This document shows positions 759 through 8,667 of a DNA stretch of 64,000 bases, piece by piece. The position numbers and the translations under genes were made by a program. The stretch comes from Aequorivita aurantiaca (lineage in GTDB: Bacteria; Bacteroidota; Bacteroidia; Flavobacteriales; Flavobacteriaceae). The notes below the pieces were generated by a model, which did no database searches, was not told where the DNA came from, and worked only from the letters and a program-made list of their open reading frames with translations. The stretch is taken from assembly GCF_030410135.1 (NCBI RefSeq), contig NZ_JAUGQQ010000001.1, positions 558,001-622,000 of the forward strand, written 5' to 3'. The first letter of the stretch is position 1. Each line of letters begins with the position of its first letter.

Positions 759-3002
759 TTATGATTTTTTATAACTTGAATAATATTCATCCATCAAATT
801 CATTAATGCCTTCACCAAATCTTTTGTTTCCAGCAAAATACTGAAATATAAGGTAGTGTTTTTAGGGCTCGACTCCTCTGTTCGGGTGCGCGCTATCTGC
901 TTTTCTATCTTATTTGAAAGACTTGTAAAAATTTCCTCCTTTTTTGCCAGTACATTTTTTATGCGCTGGAACTCTTTTTTGTGGAAGATGTCATCGATCT
1001 CATTCAAAAGTTCTTCCAAATGCTGATCTATTTCCTGCAAATCCTTTATTTGATTAAAACGAAGCGCCTTGTGGTTATTATTCACGTGCTTATAACTGGC
1101 CTTCGAAATAAATTCCAAGGATTGCACCACATCCGTTAGATAGCCTAAAATTATAATATAAAAGTTACTGCCGCGAACGCTTGTTTCATCCAGGTTTTTA
1201 ATGAAATAGAAAATGTTGTCGCGCAATTCCTCTACTTCATCGGTTAGTTTGCTTACTCCCTTTTTGCTCTTTTTCAGTTTTTTGGTATCCTGTTTGGCTA
1301 AGCCACGAAGCATATCGCTATAAATTTTATTCGTACGGGAAACCACGTTGCTAATATTTTCGGCACTTTCCTGAATGATGCCTTGTACCGTTTTGCTCTC
1401 TGTTTTCTTTAGTCCGGATTTGTCCAGCTTCACTTTCACTTTGTTTTTATGGGATAGGTAGTTGCGAACCAATAAAAGAATGGCCATTAATAATAGCACG
1501 GCAATCATTGCTCCTCTACCTATATATATAAGATAGGTAAGCGTTCCGGCTGCAGCAAAGGCCACAAATGCTGTAAAAAACCAGCCACCTATAACGTTCA
1601 GTACTCCGGCCACTCGGTAAACAGCGCTTTCGCGACCCCAAGCTCTATCTGCCAAAGATGTTCCCATCGCTACCATAAACGTTACGTAGGTTGTTGAAAG
1701 TGGCAGTTTCATTGAGGTGGCGGTAGCAATCAAAATTCCGGCAACAACAAGGTTTATGGAAGCTCGAATCATATCAAAAGCCGGCAATTCATAAGTTTTA
1801 TGTTTTGGAAGGTTGATTACAGGTTTTTCAAAACGTTTGTCCAATTTTTGTTGAAGAGATTGCGGCACGATGTAATTGAAATAGTTAGAGAGCTGGGTGC
1901 CGGATTTAACCAGAATTCGCGCAAACATGTTCGGATTGAATTTCTCATGCCCTTCTCCCTGTCGTGCAAGATCAATTTCAGTATCGGAAACGGAGCGTGC
2001 TTTTTTCGAAAACCACAGCGTCAGCACCATTATACCACCCGAAAGGAAAAGTAAAAGAGGTTCTGCAGGAACTTGTTGTGCAAGGCTGTCCATGCTGTAT
2101 TCAGTGGCCGCTACTCCCGAGGTGGACCAATCAATATAACTGTGGTATGCCGCCATGGGTACCCCAATAAAATTCACCAGGTCATTCCCCGCAAAAGCGA
2201 GCGCAAGACTAAAAGTTCCCGCAGCAATTACAACAATGAGAATATTCTTTTTGAAAATCATCATAAATAGCTGGGAAAAAACGGTCCAAACAATGAAGCT
2301 AATGCCTATTAACAACCACGTGTCCGCTTCCACTACACCTTTAAAATTATCGTAAAATGGCGTTCCCTTTAAGCCTTTCATCAAAATGAAATAACTTATG
2401 GAAGTAAGGGCAAGACCTCCGAAGATTGCGCCAAAATATTTCATGCGCTGCTCTGCGTGGAAGGTGAAAATAAGTCGGGACAGGTATTGCACAACCATCC
2501 CCACAGTAAAGGCAATACCCACGGAGGCAACAATTCCAAAAATAATATCCGGCACCTTATCTGCATTAATATAATTGACGAGCGCGGAAATGCCTTCGGT
2601 ATCGGAATGTCCTATTTTTATGAGAGCCATAATGACCGCGGCTCCCAAAAGTTCAAAAACTATGGAAACTGTAGTGGAGGTGGGTAATCCAATGGTATTG
2701 AAAAAATCCAGCAACAAAATATCGGTTATCATCACTGCCATGAAAATGATCATAATTTCATCAAAATAGAATTGCGAAGGTTGAAAGATTCCATTTCGCG
2801 CCACTTCCATCATACCACTGGAAAAACTGGCGCCAATAAAAATGCCGAGACTGGCAATAAGCAATATTCCCTTAAAGGGAATTGCTTTGGAACCGATTGC
2901 TGAATTCAAAAAGTTTACCGCGTCATTGCTCACGCCAACCACTAAATCTGCAACGGCAAGTGCCGCAAGGGCAACGATCATTAATAAATAAATATTATCC
3001 AT
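759..3002 (-). CDS. PiT-family inorganic phosphate transporter with C-terminal PhoU-like domain
   Basis: This is an inner-membrane, ion-coupled phosphate permease of the PiT family. The family signature appears twice. The first copy is at about residues 23-41 (GVSNDAVNFLNSAIGSKAI). The second is near residues 428-455 (KLPLSTTYVTFMVAMGTSLADRAW). Hydrophobic segments fill residues 1-515. At 747 residues it is longer than plain PitA (about 500). The extra ~220 residues are a charged, helical, PhoU-like tail. The porin gene lies 77 nt upstream on the same strand, and that gap carries a candidate Pho-box promoter, so the gene probably has its own phosphate-responsive start as well as read-through from the porin. 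The function is clear from the signature; the ion and phosphate kinetics are not. Confidence 0.9.
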   Translation of the reverse strand: MDNIYLLMIVALAALAVADLVVGVSNDAVNFLNSAIGSKAIPFKGILLIASLGIFIGASFSSGMMEVARNGIFQPSQFYFDEIMIIFMAVMITDILLLDFFNTIGLPTSTTVSIVFELLGAAVIMALIKIGHSDTEGISALVNYINADKVPDIIFGIVASVGIAFTVGMVVQYLSRLIFTFHAEQRMKYFGAIFGGLALTSISYFILMKGLKGTPFYDNFKGVVEADTWLLIGISFIVWTVFSQLFMMIFKKNILIVVIAAGTFSLALAFAGNDLVNFIGVPMAAYHSYIDWSTSGVAATEYSMDSLAQQVPAEPLLLFLSGGIMVLTLWFSKKARSVSDTEIDLARQGEGHEKFNPNMFARILVKSGTQLSNYFNYIVPQSLQQKLDKRFEKPVINLPKHKTYELPAFDMIRASINLVVAGILIATATSMKLPLSTTYVTFMVAMGTSLADRAWGRESAVYRVAGVLNVIGGWFFTAFVAFAAAGTLTYLIYIGRGAMIAVLLLMAILLLVRNYLSHKNKVKVKLDKSGLKKTESKTVQGIIQESAENISNVVSRTNKIYSDMLRGLAKQDTKKLKKSKKGVSKLTDEVEELRDNIFYFIKNLDETSVRGSNFYIIILGYLTDVVQSLEFISKASYKHVNNNHKALRFNQIKDLQEIDQHLEELLNEIDDIFHKKEFQRIKNVLAKKEEIFTSLSNKIEKQIARTRTEESSPKNTTLYFSILLETKDLVKALMNLMDEYYSSYKKS

Positions 3003-3024: not shown

Positions 3025-3075
3025 CAAATTTCCCATAATAAACAGGATTGATTGTTACCAAATGGTTAAGTGTAT
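3025..3075 (-). promoter_or_regulatory. Candidate Pho-box promoter of the PiT gene
   Basis: Two direct repeats starting GTTA lie at 3054 and 3065 (read on the plus strand), spaced exactly 11 bp. The -7-like TTTG of the minus strand is the complement of CAAA at 3025-3028, exactly 29 bp from the first repeat. The repeats start 52 bp upstream of the start codon. The same geometry is found before the porin and TonB-receptor genes. The assignment to a PhoB-like activator is inferred. Confidence 0.55.
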
Positions 3076-3079
3076 ATTT

Positions 3080-4279
3080 TTAAAAATGCAAATCAAATCC
3101 CAAGCGATATTCTATAAAACTGCTTTCACCCCCTACGGTTGCATAGGTTACATCGGTTTGCACTTTCAACTTATGCCCAACAATATATTTTGAACCGCCC
3201 AGGGTAAATAGATTTTGTGCATCATTATCTGAAAAATTAGTGTCGGGAATAATGGATGTAAACCGTCCGGCAACTTCCCAATTCGACTTAAAAACATAGC
3301 CGGCCTGAAAATTAAATCCCTGCCCGATATATACTTCTTGTTGAGTAAAGGAACCATCGCTATTTTTTGCAAGCGGGTCTTCAGCATCGCGATAGCTATA
3401 TTCCCCCATGACGGAAAATCCGTTGTATTTAAACATTGCATCAATAAAGAGCGTGCTAATGTTGGTTTCGTAAAAACCAATGTCGTTTTCCATATAACTG
3501 CCTTGGTTACTTCGGGTTTTTACGGCATCCACATTAACGTCAAAGGTTGCGCCGATGGAGAGTTTTGGAGTTTTTTCGCGATAAATATCACCGCCAATAT
3601 AGTCGCCCTTTTCAATAAACTTGCCAAATGGAAGAATTTCCACTCGAGTTGTGTATTGCAGACCGCCGAGATTTCCAGTAACCACATTTCTTCCTTCACC
3701 TTGGGACACGGCAAACATTTCTCTTATATGAAAATTTTCGGCGGCCTTAAAATTATGGCGCAATTGGAGGCCCAAATCTCTATCAATGTTGAATAAACTA
3801 TTCATTCGGGAACGGTCTATAAACTGAAGATTTGCTGAAGAAACAACGCGCTCCCTGTTCCCCGGAAGCTTGGTCTGTCCGGCCCAGAGCTCCAAATTTT
3901 TGTAGAAATTCCACATTATTACGGCATCATAAATAATTCTTGGTGCATTACCGGTGAATTCTGATTCGCCCGCCATATCAAAATTTGAAAATCCCAGCTC
4001 AATTTTATACCGCAGTTTTGGAGAATATGCGAATCCGTCAAACTTAAGCCGGGCGCGGCGGATGTTGAAACTTTGGGTACTCTTTCCAAATCGATCCTCT
4101 TCATATTCCCAAAGAGAAAGTGCGCGCATTTGAATTCTTGGCGCAAAACGTACGCTCCACGTGCTGTCCTTGCCAACAAAGTTCAACATTCCCTCGCCGA
4201 ATTTTGGAGTTGTTATTTGCGAATGGGCCGTGGATAGGGAAAATATTAAAATCCCAAATAGAAATATCTTACGGTTCAT
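3080..4279 (-). CDS. Phosphate-selective outer-membrane porin (OprO/OprP-like)
   Basis: This 399-residue protein begins with a signal peptide (MNRKIFLFGILIFSLSTAHS). It continues as alternating amphipathic strands typical of a 16-strand porin and ends in aromatic FDLHF, as outer-membrane barrels do. The pattern resembles the phosphate-selective porin O/P family (PF07396): an early strand with RFAPRIQMRA, then SFNIRRARLKFDG, then an ELWAGQTKLPGNRE segment. Its role would be to let phosphate or polyphosphate cross the outer membrane. It is immediately followed by the PiT transporter on the same strand, so outer- and inner-membrane phosphate uptake are encoded together. Its promoter region carries a candidate Pho box. 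The family call is firm; substrate selectivity is inferred from family and context. Confidence 0.85.
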   Translation of the reverse strand: MNRKIFLFGILIFSLSTAHSQITTPKFGEGMLNFVGKDSTWSVRFAPRIQMRALSLWEYEEDRFGKSTQSFNIRRARLKFDGFAYSPKLRYKIELGFSNFDMAGESEFTGNAPRIIYDAVIMWNFYKNLELWAGQTKLPGNRERVVSSANLQFIDRSRMNSLFNIDRDLGLQLRHNFKAAENFHIREMFAVSQGEGRNVVTGNLGGLQYTTRVEILPFGKFIEKGDYIGGDIYREKTPKLSIGATFDVNVDAVKTRSNQGSYMENDIGFYETNISTLFIDAMFKYNGFSVMGEYSYRDAEDPLAKNSDGSFTQQEVYIGQGFNFQAGYVFKSNWEVAGRFTSIIPDTNFSDNDAQNLFTLGGSKYIVGHKLKVQTDVTYATVGGESSFIEYRLGFDLHF

Positions 4280-4307
4280 TAAAATTCGTTTTTAGTTTTT
4301 GTCGCTG

Positions 4308-4369
4308 CAAAGGACTTACTTTTCGGGAAAATGAATGTTTCCGAAATGTTAAGCAACCTTTCAAACTTC
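4308..4369 (-). promoter_or_regulatory. Candidate Pho-box promoter of the phosphate porin gene
   Basis: Direct repeats with an 11-bp period start at 4337 (GTTT), 4348 (GTTA) and 4359 (TTTC, weak). The -7-like TTTG (complement of CAAA at 4308-4311) is again exactly 29 bp from the first repeat. It is preceded by GTCC rather than TAnn, so the basal promoter should be weak and activator-dependent. The repeats start 58 bp upstream of the porin start codon. Confidence 0.5.
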
Positions 4370-4389
4370 TTATAAATTTATAAAAAAAA

Positions 4390-4412
4390 GGGCTGTCCAA
4401 GAAGAACAGCCC
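4390..4412 (-). terminator. Strong minus-strand intrinsic terminator
   Basis: The stem GGGCTGT (4390-4396) pairs with ACAGCCC (4406-4412) around a 9-nt loop. On the minus strand it is followed by eight T (complement of 4382-4389). There is no T tract on the plus side, so it acts in the minus direction. Confidence 0.8.
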
Positions 4413-4437
4413 ATTTTGGAAATCTAGTCGACAAAAA

Positions 4438-4503
4438 CTAAACGATTTCAACAATTGCCTTTTTATAGGCAAAACAAAGAAAGAATTTAATTTCTTTCAC
4501 CAT
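4438..4503 (-). CDS. Possible 21-residue peptide inside the putative small transcript
   Basis: An ATG at 4503 opens a 22-codon frame ending with TAG at 4438. It reads MVKEIKFFLCFAYKKAIVEI plus V. The peptide is basic at both ends with a hydrophobic centre (FFLCFA). The stop lies 25 nt before the terminator stem, so the ORF fits neatly in the predicted transcript. It is too short to judge coding bias, and two of the RNA hairpins fall inside it, so it may be incidental. Confidence 0.25.
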   Translation of the reverse strand: MVKEIKFFLCFAYKKAIVEIV

Positions 4504-4594
4504 ATAGAATTAGGTTTACCAAATCGTTAAATCATAATATGCATTTCGAAAATGTTCTTTAACAAACTATAAAACAATAGAATAGCGCCTCAAA

Positions 4595-4638
4595 GTTAAT
4601 TTAAGGTTATGAAATAGTTTTCCTGAGGTTAATTTTAT
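4595..4638 (-). promoter_or_regulatory. Four-unit 11-bp direct-repeat array (candidate Pho box)
   Basis: Four repeats start at 4595 (GTTA), 4606 (GTTA), 4617 (GTTT) and 4628 (GTTA), each exactly 11 bp apart, in the same orientation as the arrays before the three phosphate genes. The nearest downstream TTTG (complement of 4563-4566) is 32 bp away rather than 29. A perfect TAnnTTTG (4591-4598) overlaps the first repeat. It lies over 300 bp from the porin start, so it more likely serves a short transcript in between. Confidence 0.45.
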
Positions 4639-4673
4639 TCATTAAGGGAAAACCTTGCACGGCGAAAATAAAA

Positions 4674-4701
4674 GAGTCTCCTGTTTTCGAGAGACCTTTT
4701 T
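4674..4701 (-). terminator. Terminator of the TonB receptor-lipoprotein operon
   Basis: A short stem GTCTC (4676-4680) pairs with GAGAC (4691-4695), flanked by a T-rich run on each strand. It lies 25 bp past the lipoprotein stop codon. The stem is only 5 bp, so it is a moderate call. Confidence 0.5.
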
Positions 4702-4725
4702 AAAAATTGAACGATGCGGGATTGA

Positions 4726-5751
4726 TTAATTATGTATCCAGTCCCAACCAGAAATATCTACCGGAGTTCCGTTGAAGACCTCATCTTCGGGCGTTGATAG
4801 TGGCGTACCGTTAACCACTATATTTTGGAGCGGTCCGTCATCTTTCATATCCACATTGGTGCCATAGCCCGTTAATTGGATATTCGTGAAAGTTCCCCCA
4901 GATTCTTTTTTAAATTGAAATGCGATGCCACTTCCGGGACTGCTAGTGTTGACCGCCGTTAAATTAACAAATGACGGATTGTTATTGTCGCCATCGCCCT
5001 CTATGGCAGTGGAAAAACTAGAGCCATTGTTCAATATATAGGTGTTGGTAATTGTACCGCTCCAACCCTCAGTCCAATCTACGGAGTCATCTTCATTATT
5101 TTCAAAATATAAATTAGTTGCGGAAACAGTTCCGCCGAAAAACTCAATGCCGTCATCGGCACCATCTATCACCGCAACATTTTCGATTTGCGTGCCAGAG
5201 CCTACCGCATAAAGTGTTAAACCATTGTACTGCGATTCGGAATTGATTTGTGCTCCCGCCCCGCGAATTATCAAATATTTAATGGAGCCCGAATTATCGG
5301 CATCATCATTTCCTCCGTAGATTAATCCACCAACTTCCCCGGTAACATTTATACCTTCCGTTGTTGTTGCTTTTCCGCAGAGCAGTAAACCGCCCCAATC
5401 GCCGGTGTTGTTATTTGCAGATCGCATTACGACAGGGTTTGATGAGGTGCCCTGAATATCGATTTTTCCTCCCTGTTCCACGGCAATATAACGATCCGTT
5501 CCTACTTGGGAAATGATAGTGGTTCCTGCAGGAATGGTGAGTTTGGCGCCGGCCTTTACAAGGTATGGACCCGTTAGCGTGTATTGCTCGGAGGCTATTA
5601 AAATTCTATCCGATTGCAATGAGCCGGAGAGTTGTGTGTTTTCAATAGGTTCTTCTTCAGTTGTTGAAAAATCGTCGTCACTGCTACATCCCGAAAGGAA
5701 TAGAGTGCTTATTGTTGCCATTGCCAATGTAAAATTTTTAATGTTTTTCAT
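4726..5751 (-). CDS. Surface lipoprotein with right-handed beta-helix, partner of the TonB receptor
   Basis: This 341-residue lipoprotein has a signal peptide ending in the lipobox LSGC (lipidated Cys at about 22), then an acidic SSDDD stretch typical of surface-exported flavobacterial lipoproteins. The rest is a run of beta-rich turns such as GGLIYGGNDDADNSGSIKYL, FFGGTVSATNLYFENN and WSGTITNTYILNNG, the look of a right-handed parallel beta-helix. It starts 33 bp after the TonB receptor stop, so the two form an operon. The pair resembles a receptor plus surface-capture lipoprotein. Placement beside phosphate porin and PiT genes, with a Pho-box-like site ahead of the operon, suggests binding of a phosphorus-containing ligand, which is inference only. 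No catalytic motif was recognised. Confidence 0.75.
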   Translation of the reverse strand: MKNIKNFTLAMATISTLFLSGCSSDDDFSTTEEEPIENTQLSGSLQSDRILIASEQYTLTGPYLVKAGAKLTIPAGTTIISQVGTDRYIAVEQGGKIDIQGTSSNPVVMRSANNNTGDWGGLLLCGKATTTEGINVTGEVGGLIYGGNDDADNSGSIKYLIIRGAGAQINSESQYNGLTLYAVGSGTQIENVAVIDGADDGIEFFGGTVSATNLYFENNEDDSVDWTEGWSGTITNTYILNNGSSFSTAIEGDGDNNNPSFVNLTAVNTSSPGSGIAFQFKKESGGTFTNIQLTGYGTNVDMKDDGPLQNIVVNGTPLSTPEDEVFNGTPVDISGWDWIHN

Positions 5752-5784
5752 TTTCGTTTTTAGTTTAAGTTAGACATTCGTTGT

Positions 5785-8559
5785 TTAAAAGTTATAATTT
5801 AGGTTTATGCCCAATAGCGCACCTTGGGTGTATGAAAGCACTGTTTCTTCGGTCTCAATTTGCGTGGTGCTTGGCTTTATAAGTTGGGTGCGTTCTATTT
5901 CCGGGTTTAAAATATTTTTCGCTGAAATCCCTATTTTGAAATTCTGTGAGATTTCTTTACTGAGTATCAAATCCAGCGTTATATATCCTTTTTCAATAAT
6001 TGCATCGTTATAATTCACATCGCCCGAAGTTTGAAAAGCAGGCGAGCCAAGAGCATAAATTTTTTCAGAGGAATAATTGCCGGAAATAGTGGCTTCGAAT
6101 GGATTCTGGCTGCCTTTTCGGAAATTCAGCGAGCCGTTTATTATCCAATTCGCGGCTCCTTGAAGGCCGGTTTCGGTGAGACCCTTATACCGGAAAGTTC
6201 GGATTAAATTACCGGCTTCGTTAAAAACTTCTTTTAAATCCTGTTTGTGCCACATTCTTGCAACATTAACATTGAGTTTTAAAAGGGGGTTTTCATCGCT
6301 GGACAAAATATTTACACGCCCTTCCATTTCTAAGCCATAAACCTCGGCTTGGTTCCCCGCATTGAAATAAGAAAAAACCCCCGCAGCACCCCTGTCCAAC
6401 ACTTTATTGATTGGGTTTTCAATTTGTTTGTAAAAGCCTGTAAGGGATAGCAATTGATCTTTTGTGGGAAAGTATTCCCATTTAAGATCGAAATTTCTGT
6501 TTAGGGAAGCTTCAATTTCGGGATTCCCTCGCGTAACTTGGCCAATAGGAGAAACATATTCAAAGGGAGCAATTTCTTTAAATTCGGGAAGGGTAGTGGT
6601 ATAGCTGTTCGCGAAACGAATGTTTTGTTTTTGATTTAGGGCATATTTTAAATTGACCGATGGAAATACCCTACGGTACTCTTTTTCCGTGCTGCCTTTT
6701 CTACCGGGGAAATTGTTGACGTCCCAGTTAACATCAATATTATCACTTTGAAACCTTAAACCGGCCTGCACTGTTATTTTCCCACGAACTCCGGTAACGT
6801 TTGCATATCCCGCTATGGAATTATGGGTTCCGAAATAGATATCGGGCGGAAGCGTGTTTCTTTTTAAAAGACCATTGTTGAAGTTTTGTTGTGTGAATAT
6901 TCCAGACATTTCATCAATGGAGGGCGGGTTGACAGCATTCGTAACTGTTTCTTCCACACCATAAAATTGCGAACCAAAATCACGGGTTTTGTTCCGGAAA
7001 GTGCCACCAATGTTTATGTTGAAAATGTCCTCGTCACCATTTATAATTTTGAGTAAATTGTCCAACCGTCCATTATATTCAATATCTTCAATTTTTTGTA
7101 CACTTTTTCGTTGCTGAAAACCACCATTACGCCCCAGTTGAACCAAGTTTTCATTGAAATTCAATTCATTGCGGATACGGTTTGGTTCGTCAGCATTTAA
7201 AAAATTGTATCCGGCGGCCCAGTTCAAATCATATTTTTCATGTAAAGAGTGCTCGGCAATAAACTGGGTCACGGAAAGTAGGGTTTGCTTGAGGTTTTGG
7301 TCCCGAACAAATTGTGACAAACCTTCCTGCGGATCCGTTTCCTCATAAATAATGGCCTCGCCGGAACGTCCGCCTTCGAAAACTTCGTCCTCAATTTTGT
7401 TTATCAATAAAGTGTTCAATTGAATATTGTGCCTGTCATTAGCCCTAAATCTGAGATTAAATAATCCCGAAGTGGCTATTTCTTTTTTCCACGAAATGGC
7501 ATCTGGAATTATATCGTCCAAAAAGTTGGAACGATATTGTTTAAAAACCCCTTCCTTATATTCATAATCCGTTGTTTGTCCCGCGGTTAAAAGGACGCTC
7601 AATTTATTGCCAATTCTTGTTCCGGCACTGAGGGAATAGGAATTGTTTATTGGGAATTCCGCAGGGTCCGGATCCCAGCTTTGTTTCGTGATTGCCTGAT
7701 ATGTGGGCATACTTTTTTTATAGAAACCGAGCGATACATCTTTAAAATTGGGCGAAACCTTAAAATTCTTGAACACGTCCTCCTTCATAATATTCGTATT
7801 AACGGAACCGCTGACCCCTAAAGTGAGGAGCTTGCTGCCCGAAAGTTGCCCGGTTTTAATGTCAATATTTCCGGCGGCCTGATCAGCAGAAATATTTGGC
7901 GATGTGGTTTTACTAACTTCAATGCTTTCAATAAGTCGGGTGGGGAAGAGATTTAGGTTTATATTCTTTCTTTCAATATTATCCGAAGGAATAGGAAGTC
8001 CATTAAGGGTGGTATATAAATATCGGTCGCCAAGCCCGCGAACGAAAATAGCATCGTTGCCTTCCGATTTGGTAATGCCCGAAATTTTAGAAGTTGCCGC
8101 TGCGGCATCGGAAACGCCCAGTTTTTGCAATTGTTCAGCGCCAATACTTTCCCTGATTTCTACGGCTTTTTTCTGGTCCAATAATAGGGCGACCTCACTC
8201 ACCCTTCGTGTTGTGGTTTTTACAACCACTTCCTCAAGAGCCGCCGCGCTGGCGCTCATGGGCACATTTAAACTTGTAATTTCCTTGGCATTGACGGTAA
8301 CATTCGGAATTTCGACGCTGTTGTAGCCAATAAAACTATAAACTACTGTATAAACGCCGGGTTTTAAATTTTCAATTTTATAAAAACCATCCATAGCTGA
8401 GGTTACGCCAATGGAAGTGCCTTTTAAAACAACATTCGCAAAGGGTAGCGGTTCATTATTATAGTCTGAATCTGTCAGTTTGCCTACAATTGCCCCACTT
8501 TCCTGGGCATAGATTAATGTGGAAAAAAAGAGTAGAAAAAGTTGAAATGTAATCTTCAT
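5785..8559 (-). CDS. TonB-dependent outer-membrane receptor with carboxypeptidase-like N-terminal domain
   Basis: This 924-residue protein has a signal peptide (MKITFQLFLLFFSTLIYAQ), then a carboxypeptidase-regulatory-like domain at about residues 22-105. A plug domain follows, recognisable by IFVRGLGDRYLYTTLNGLPIPS near residues 170-190, then a long 22-strand barrel ending in aromatic NLNYNF. It would import a large or scarce ligand using TonB energy. The receptor is followed by a beta-helix lipoprotein in one operon. A five-unit 11-bp repeat array lies 54 bp upstream of the start codon in the divergent region shared with dgt. The ligand is unknown; the neighbouring phosphate genes make an organophosphate, phosphate complex or nucleic-acid-derived ligand plausible. 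Confidence 0.9.
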   Translation of the reverse strand: MKITFQLFLLFFSTLIYAQESGAIVGKLTDSDYNNEPLPFANVVLKGTSIGVTSAMDGFYKIENLKPGVYTVVYSFIGYNSVEIPNVTVNAKEITSLNVPMSASAAALEEVVVKTTTRRVSEVALLLDQKKAVEIRESIGAEQLQKLGVSDAAAATSKISGITKSEGNDAIFVRGLGDRYLYTTLNGLPIPSDNIERKNINLNLFPTRLIESIEVSKTTSPNISADQAAGNIDIKTGQLSGSKLLTLGVSGSVNTNIMKEDVFKNFKVSPNFKDVSLGFYKKSMPTYQAITKQSWDPDPAEFPINNSYSLSAGTRIGNKLSVLLTAGQTTDYEYKEGVFKQYRSNFLDDIIPDAISWKKEIATSGLFNLRFRANDRHNIQLNTLLINKIEDEVFEGGRSGEAIIYEETDPQEGLSQFVRDQNLKQTLLSVTQFIAEHSLHEKYDLNWAAGYNFLNADEPNRIRNELNFNENLVQLGRNGGFQQRKSVQKIEDIEYNGRLDNLLKIINGDEDIFNINIGGTFRNKTRDFGSQFYGVEETVTNAVNPPSIDEMSGIFTQQNFNNGLLKRNTLPPDIYFGTHNSIAGYANVTGVRGKITVQAGLRFQSDNIDVNWDVNNFPGRKGSTEKEYRRVFPSVNLKYALNQKQNIRFANSYTTTLPEFKEIAPFEYVSPIGQVTRGNPEIEASLNRNFDLKWEYFPTKDQLLSLTGFYKQIENPINKVLDRGAAGVFSYFNAGNQAEVYGLEMEGRVNILSSDENPLLKLNVNVARMWHKQDLKEVFNEAGNLIRTFRYKGLTETGLQGAANWIINGSLNFRKGSQNPFEATISGNYSSEKIYALGSPAFQTSGDVNYNDAIIEKGYITLDLILSKEISQNFKIGISAKNILNPEIERTQLIKPSTTQIETEETVLSYTQGALLGINLNYNF

Positions 8560-8583
8560 TTTTGTCGGTTTGATTTATTGGTG

Positions 8584-8667
8584 CAAAGAAAACTTTCCAA
8601 TGTAAAGTCGGGGTTAAATGGCTATTACCAATTAGTCATTTTAGGGTTATCGGAAGGTTAATTTGAA
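8584..8667 (-). promoter_or_regulatory. Candidate Pho-box promoter of the TonB receptor operon (five repeats)
   Basis: Five direct repeats start at 8613 (GTTA), 8624 (ATTA), 8635 (GTCA), 8646 (GTTA) and 8657 (GTTA), each exactly 11 bp apart. The -7-like TTTG (complement of CAAA at 8584-8587) is 29 bp from the first repeat, as in the porin and PiT promoters. It is preceded by TTTC, not TAnn. An 11-bp direct-repeat period is the known binding pattern of PhoB/OmpR-type winged-helix activators. Confidence 0.6.

Follow-up and report, generated by a model that had tools for sequence, protein, structure and literature searches.

Which regulator controls phosphate entry in Aequorivita aurantiaca, and where on the DNA does it act? 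The question is raised by a window of 64,000 nucleotides, the whole stretch of DNA that was analysed from the 3.09-Mb host genome. In this window, the genes of a PiT-type transporter, a phosphate-selective porin and a TonB-dependent receptor are each preceded by short direct repeats. The genes and promoter parts concerned are listed below.

759..3002, minus strand: PiT-type phosphate transporter gene (PF01384 PHO4, E 1.1e-26)
3025..3028, minus strand (CAAA on plus): TTTG of the PiT -7 element (from the sequence and 84 orthologous sites)
3054..3058, minus strand: PiT candidate Pho-box unit GTAAC, TAAC start 29 nt upstream of TTTG (register conserved)
3065..3069, minus strand: PiT candidate Pho-box unit TTAAC, TAAC start 40 nt upstream of TTTG (register conserved)
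3080..4279, minus strand: phosphate-selective porin O/P gene (PF07396, E 2.7e-9)
4308..4311, minus strand (CAAA on plus): TTTG of the porin -7 element (from the sequence; 29 porin promoters read)
4337..4341, minus strand: porin candidate Pho-box unit GAAAC, departing from TAAC (from the sequence; 29 porin promoters read)
4348..4352, minus strand: porin candidate Pho-box unit TTAAC, 11 bp further up than GAAAC (from the sequence; 29 porin promoters read)
4726..5751, minus strand: FII-type lipoprotein gene, immediately 3' of the receptor gene (without Pfam match)
5785..8559, minus strand: TonB-dependent receptor gene (PF07715, PF14905, PF13715; 50 related loci)
8584..8587, minus strand (CAAA on plus): TTTG of the receptor -7 element (from the sequence)
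8602..8606, minus strand: receptor unit TTTAC, offset 18, the sixth unit (from the sequence; TTTAC here in several orthologues)
8613..8661, minus strand: receptor candidate Pho-box array, with TTAAC at 8613, GTAAT at 8624, a weak unit at 8635, ATAAC at 8646 and TTAAC at 8657 (from the sequence)

The first-pass annotation had described repeats with an exact 11-bp period before the three genes, the nearest one 29 bp from a TTTG. The coordinates and the period were borne out by a check of the sequence, the gene strand being minus. The 29-nt distance from repeat to TTTG is exact before the PiT, porin and receptor genes, and so are the distances to the start codon of 52 (PiT), 58 (porin) and 54 bp (receptor). 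In the PiT and receptor promoters, the unit at this distance contains TAAC, with its T at exactly 29 nt from the TTTG; the porin promoter has GAAAC there. Two descriptions were revised. The porin units at 4337 and 4348 stand, and the one called weak at 4359 is a poor unit; the five units noted before the receptor gene are present, together with the TTTAC unit, which had been overlooked. At least two direct repeats with an 11-bp period were found, as in a PHO box.

The promoters were scored by the number of letters matching TAAC-N7-TAAC-N25-TTTG (maximum 12). With 12, 11 and 11 letters matched, the three promoters take the first three ranks among the 44 upstream regions of the window (150 bp each, from 45 genes; one region was too short to be used). 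These scores were attained by 0, 1 and 0 of 3000 order-1 Markov resamples. Loose searches of the host genome showed no such excess: the 15-letter form with up to two mismatches gave 21 matches vs 21 for the control, and TTAAC-N6-TTAAC with one mismatch gave 256 vs 923, an uninformative result. Five matches with zero or one mismatch were found in this genome, before PiT, porin and moxR and at two sites without an ORF start within 160 bp. An exact two-unit box also lies about 93 bp before a CarboxypepD_reg/DUF5686 gene (G000:C22:503760-503804, L043); it may be due to chance.

The PiT gene was matched in 118 of 120 Flavobacteriaceae genomes, with 119 genera sampled. Its upstream DNA was read in 109 of these 118 genomes, partial or unfetched regions being excluded. 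A box scoring at least 11/12 at period 11 and gap 25 is present in 84 of the 109 promoters, 74 of them at 12/12. Control geometries were found in far fewer promoters (0-11 for other periods, at most 20 for period 11 with other gaps). The register was also determined by anchoring on nothing but the start-codon-proximal TTTGC, which is present in 76 of the 109 promoters. An exact TAAC was found at offset 40 in 65/76 and at offset 29 in 62/76, whereas off-phase offsets averaged 0.49 exact TAAC. The letters of TTTG are kept in 100, 100, 99 and 95% of the 84 orthologous sites, respectively. The box is missing from 25/109 PiT promoters. In three of these genomes (G006, G021, and G066), the porin gene just upstream is nevertheless preceded by a box of 10/12.

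The receptor sample comprises 50 loci (20 Flavobacteriaceae-type, 27 Chryseobacterium, and 3 Bacteroidales), and all 50 contain an FII-like ORF. The nearest matches to the receptor of the window share 73-78% identity (Aequorivita). A box of at least 11/12 precedes the receptor gene in 20/20 Flavobacteriaceae-type loci, although some of these receptors are only about one third identical to that of the window. As the true starts may lie later, the first 60 nt of the ORF were included in this count; an earlier count gave 16/20. The register was not found in 27/27 Chryseobacterium and 3/3 Bacteroidales promoters, the extended reading included. TTAA-type repeats outside the 29/40 register were seen in Chryseobacterium receptor promoters (e.g. 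L076 and L080); the box may occupy another position in this lineage.

The porin sample comprises 29 promoters, including that of the window, of genes with at least 50% identity to the window porin. The score is at least 11/12 in 17 and at least 10/12 in 28 of them, and the match ends 25-37 nt ahead of the start codon. The units lie at offsets 40, 29, and often 18, the last being the place of the receptor's TTTAC unit. A GAAAC unit was counted by eye in 20/29 porin promoters and is thus a conserved variant, not a sign of decay. Conservation in related species, on which the first-pass annotation had made its proposal depend, is thus strong within the family for PiT, receptor and porin promoters.

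The exact pattern TAACN7TAACN25TTTGC has 247 matches in the 120 Flavobacteriaceae genomes vs 33 for the reversed pattern. Among the 150 matches listed of these 247, 54 are before moxR, 41 before PiT, and 20 on PiT's strand 1-11 kb upstream of it, where the window has the porin and receptor genes. Another 35 were classed as other, including moxR-type matches in G079 and G089 and three matches that directly adjoin phoB in divergent orientation (G030, G086, and G087). Six Flavobacterium-type genomes (five assigned to Flavobacterium by name, and a MAG whose name gives no more than Bacteroidia) have 13 exact matches, namely 5 before PiT, 4 before receptors, 1 before moxR and 3 elsewhere. One-mismatch matches in these six genomes include those before an FII and an Endonuclease_1 gene. 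Their total is barely above the control (111 vs 87), so that single weak matches prove little. The whole-phylum search covered 198 genomes, and its figures were summed for 49 of them. The 19 genomes of the same family have 46 matches vs 10 for the control; the 30 other genomes of the order and class have 19 vs 16, without overall enrichment. Outside the family, 11 loci with the exact pattern were read; the gene that follows is a PHO4 gene in two of them (a weak match in one), a porin O/P gene in one, and a receptor gene in another two.

The expectation that the motif would precede other phosphate genes held in part. It was found before FII, DUF47/PhoU_div and Endonuclease_1 genes, but only one of five phoA/phoX promoters, from a congener (G027), reaches 11/12, and the host's own phoA has 10. 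These values were obtained from later, signal-peptide-like start codons picked by eye; from the first start codons, none of the phoA/phoX promoters reaches 11/12. The two sites upstream of phoA in the host and the congener (L346 and L347; 10/12 and 11/12) are in the same register if a later start codon is taken. Among the phoB promoters, 37/38 score at most 10, and the host's own scores 8. Two individual sites were also seen: a PhoU_div/DUF47 gene preceded by an exact box (L370, G150), and a one-mismatch box preceding an Endonuclease_1 gene of Flavobacterium jejuense (L208, G124). Two Endonuclease_1 proteins (pf04231) of Flavobacterium johnsoniae, Fjoh_4721 and 4723, are phosphate-induced (PMC8115612). 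The box therefore stands before phosphate-acquisition genes in several species, and moxR has the geometry too.

Published expression data bear on the same genes. On phosphate depletion in F. johnsoniae, the fold changes are 8.0 for the receptor Fjoh_0545 and 9.9 for the FII protein Fjoh_0546, apparently on a log2 scale, and 3.1 for PhoB (PMC8115612, Table 1). PitA is absent from this induction table, and OprP (Fjoh_0542) is without induction in the same paper.

The host genome encodes only three PF00486 proteins. Their best models are PhoB, KdpE and RprY; all three score below the NCBIfam cut-offs and were named PhoB-like, KdpE-like and RprY-like. The PhoB-like protein has 216.2 and 210.4 bits vs equivalog cut-offs of 296.2 (TIGR02154) and 270 (NF053854), its two best models, hence the name; the RprY-like protein has 284.1 of 370. 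The PhoB-like gene (G000:C11:42479-43156) adjoins the gene of a PhoR-like kinase, which is under the cut-offs of all models shown. In the host genome, phoBR lies away from the receptor pair on the same contig. In eight Flavobacteriaceae-type loci (L065, L067-L071, L074, and L091), including three MAGs whose names go no further than Flavobacteriaceae or a higher rank, phoBR adjoins the receptor-lipoprotein pair in divergent orientation, and it does so in 27 Chryseobacterium loci too. The gene order Fjoh_0541-0546 matches this arrangement (PMC8115612). The PhoB-like gene thus has both an adjacent PhoR-type kinase and synteny with a published Flavobacterium phoBR. The PiT box is present in 1/5 PhoB-less genomes vs 83/104 others (p 0.0096), but this co-occurrence was given little weight because it is confounded with genome size; among genomes of at most 2.6 Mb, the values are 1/5 vs 5/12.

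The promoter core suggests how such a regulator might act. In Flavobacterium psychrophilum, TAnnTTTG, the -7 element of sigma-A promoters, occupies -12 to -5 (PMC9723704). On this scale TTTG starts at about -8, and the TAAC units at about -48, -37, and -26. The statement that none of the three promoters has the TA of the -7 element needs qualification, since in the 84 orthologous PiT promoters it is the T of TA that is commonly replaced (by G in 79%), whereas the A is conserved in 99%. At the corresponding place, CAA is found before moxR, and mostly TTTC before the receptor gene. The position of the box is fixed by the 25-nt gap to TTTG, which would place it over the -35/-33 region.

Escherichia coli PhoB replaces the -35 contact. 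A comparable mechanism can be proposed for the window. Such a Pho box would be built from NTAACATTNNN-type units of 11 bp, between two and six in number, which are read on the gene strand and lie on one face of the helix. At low phosphate, the phosphorylated PhoB-like response regulator would bind these units head to tail. The middle unit, with TAAC 29 nt upstream of TTTG (about -37), would occupy or overlap the -33 region; as this unit sits where the -33 element would be, the regulator is expected to contact RNA polymerase there. It would thereby replace the -33 contact at activator-dependent promoters and compensate for both the missing -33 and a -7 element (TAnnTTTG) without TA. Phosphate entry would then be switched on at the outer membrane (the porin, and the TonB receptor with its lipoprotein) and at the inner membrane (PiT). 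Sequence, spacing, conservation, the genes concerned and the presence and synteny of the regulator are observations; binding by the PhoB-like protein, activation and polymerase contact are predictions for the three promoters.

Taken together, the same arrangement before the same genes in many genera indicates that the repeats are very probably the landing site of the phosphate-starvation switch. We read them as the probable Pho box of the host and of the Flavobacteriaceae, to which a PhoB-like regulator would bind in place of the -33 contact, with a probability of about 0.8. The regulator proposed by the first-pass annotation remains putative and gains support from conservation, gene content and the published induction of the receptor-lipoprotein pair.

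The moxR gene complicates this assignment. In the host itself, moxR of the Bat operon is preceded by two perfect units and a TTTGCA, spaced in the same way (G000:C11:294873-294919, L031). The moxR promoters were read in 50 of the 120 genomes, and the moxR/Bat promoter has the box geometry in 39 of the 50. Because moxR/Bat combines this geometry with a different consensus, PhoB cannot be assigned from the geometry alone. The consensus is TTTTTAACCAATTnTTAACAG for moxR vs ATAACATTTAGRTAACATT for PiT. Positions are numbered from the first TAAC, its T being 0. At position 6, all 84 PiT sites have T, and 95% of the 39 moxR sites have A. At positions 10 and -1, every one of the 39 moxR sites has T; the PiT sites have G or A at position 10 in 80% and A at position -1 in 81%. 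The moxR/Bat box is probably read by RprY, so that one geometry with two consensus sequences would serve two sets of genes.

A broader reading can be formulated from these differences. In the Flavobacteriaceae, the TAAC units 40 and 29 nt upstream of a TA-less TTTG may form a shared platform on which at least two OmpR-type activators dock, the PhoB-like protein for phosphate and RprY for moxR/Bat. A few bases within or beside the units would discriminate between them (position 6 T vs A, position 10 R vs T), and the activator would stand in for the -33 contact as well as for the TA half of the -7 element. We put this reading forward tentatively, at slightly less than even odds. If it is true, one polymerase geometry would serve separate stress regulons, and cross-talk would be possible.

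Alternatively, all of the boxes might be RprY sites, the phosphate link reflecting envelope transport genes rather than phosphate sensing. RprY, a second OmpR-type regulator that is widespread, shows stronger conservation than PhoB among the family genomes and probably also reads TTAAC repeats; the shared geometry of the moxR promoter points in the same direction. In Riemerella anatipestifer, 'PhoP' binds an ArcA-like motif with the core TTTAACA and activates moxR (PMC9603813). The translated qPCR primers of the Riemerella 'PhoPR' fit RprX/RprY best in three of four cases, the fourth being ambiguous, and 'PhoP' was therefore taken as RprY. From this comparison, the 'PhoPR' of PMC5399024 and PMC9603813 appears to be an RprXY orthologue, and not the phosphate PhoBR. 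However, the PiT sites do not have the moxR-type consensus, differing at positions -1, 6, and 10. All five PhoB-less genomes keep an RprY match of at least 72% identity, but the PiT box is missing from four of them. A moxR box without a PiT box was found in six small genomes (G004, G020, G052, G058, G065, and G095), which fits two regulators. The reported 8-fold increase of pstS in the Riemerella double mutant (PMC5399024) also argues against RprY as the reader of the phosphate boxes. The moxR box and RprY do not go together perfectly: in G010, G025, G094, and G119 the PiT box is present and the moxR box is missing at 11/12, and G058 has an 11/12 moxR match despite no close RprY match. On balance, this alternative seems unlikely. 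A TTAAC-N6-TTAAC repeat was also observed between coaE and rprXY (G000:C22:518172-518187, L016), in inverse orientation to rprXY; it is possibly an RprY autoregulatory site.

The repeats might also be an activator-free upstream promoter or curvature element that is conserved along with the transport genes. Helix-phased A-/T-rich units could bend DNA, and PiT, the gene they would accompany, is nearly universal in the family. An exact TAAC is nevertheless kept while its flanks vary, the number of units differs from gene to gene, and the F. johnsoniae receptor homologue is strongly phosphate-induced (PMC8115612), which makes this explanation improbable. Chance similarity in A+T-rich promoters would agree with the mismatch-tolerant counts in the host and the six Flavobacterium-type genomes, but was rejected in view of the conserved exact register in PiT and receptor promoters, the ranking in the window and the excess of the exact pattern.

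For the candidate Pho box, several known systems offer a comparison. The E. coli PHO box also consists of 11-nt direct repeats before phosphate genes, which PhoB binds head to tail (PMC4415409). The E. coli unit is CTGTCAT, however, whereas the units here are TAACATT-like, the -7 element is of the Bacteroidota TTTG type, and binding is a prediction here. The boxes of Bacillus subtilis PhoP and cyanobacterial SphR have TTAACA-like units every 11 bp, but belong to other phyla with other promoter cores. Within the same phylum, the PhoB of Bacteroides fragilis PhoRB (BF1576) was shown by EMSA to bind a 512-bp pst promoter fragment; its target is pst, and no box is defined in the accessible part of that paper (PMC3547664). 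The Riemerella 'PhoPR' system is likewise OmpR-type and activates moxR-Bat, but its core matches the moxR-type box rather than the phosphate boxes, as expected of a probable RprXY orthologue. In E. coli ArcA boxes, two to five direct repeats likewise follow each other, mostly at 11 bp, but no conserved location at activated promoters was found for them (PMC3798270), whereas the boxes here have one. A defined Pho box for the Flavobacteriaceae or other Bacteroidota was not found in a search of the open-access literature.

The Flavobacteriaceae are major degraders of organic matter, and their phosphate response has so far been known from expression data. The suggested identity of Riemerella 'PhoP' with RprY would change the interpretation of its published binding data. 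A base-level rule of the form TAAC-N7-TAAC-N25-TTTG, with a TAACATT-like unit, would allow the prediction of the phosphate regulon in uncultured genomes and would also uncover new phosphate genes, such as those of FII lipoproteins. Moreover, it would allow activator action to be tested at the unusual TAnnTTTG promoters of this phylum.
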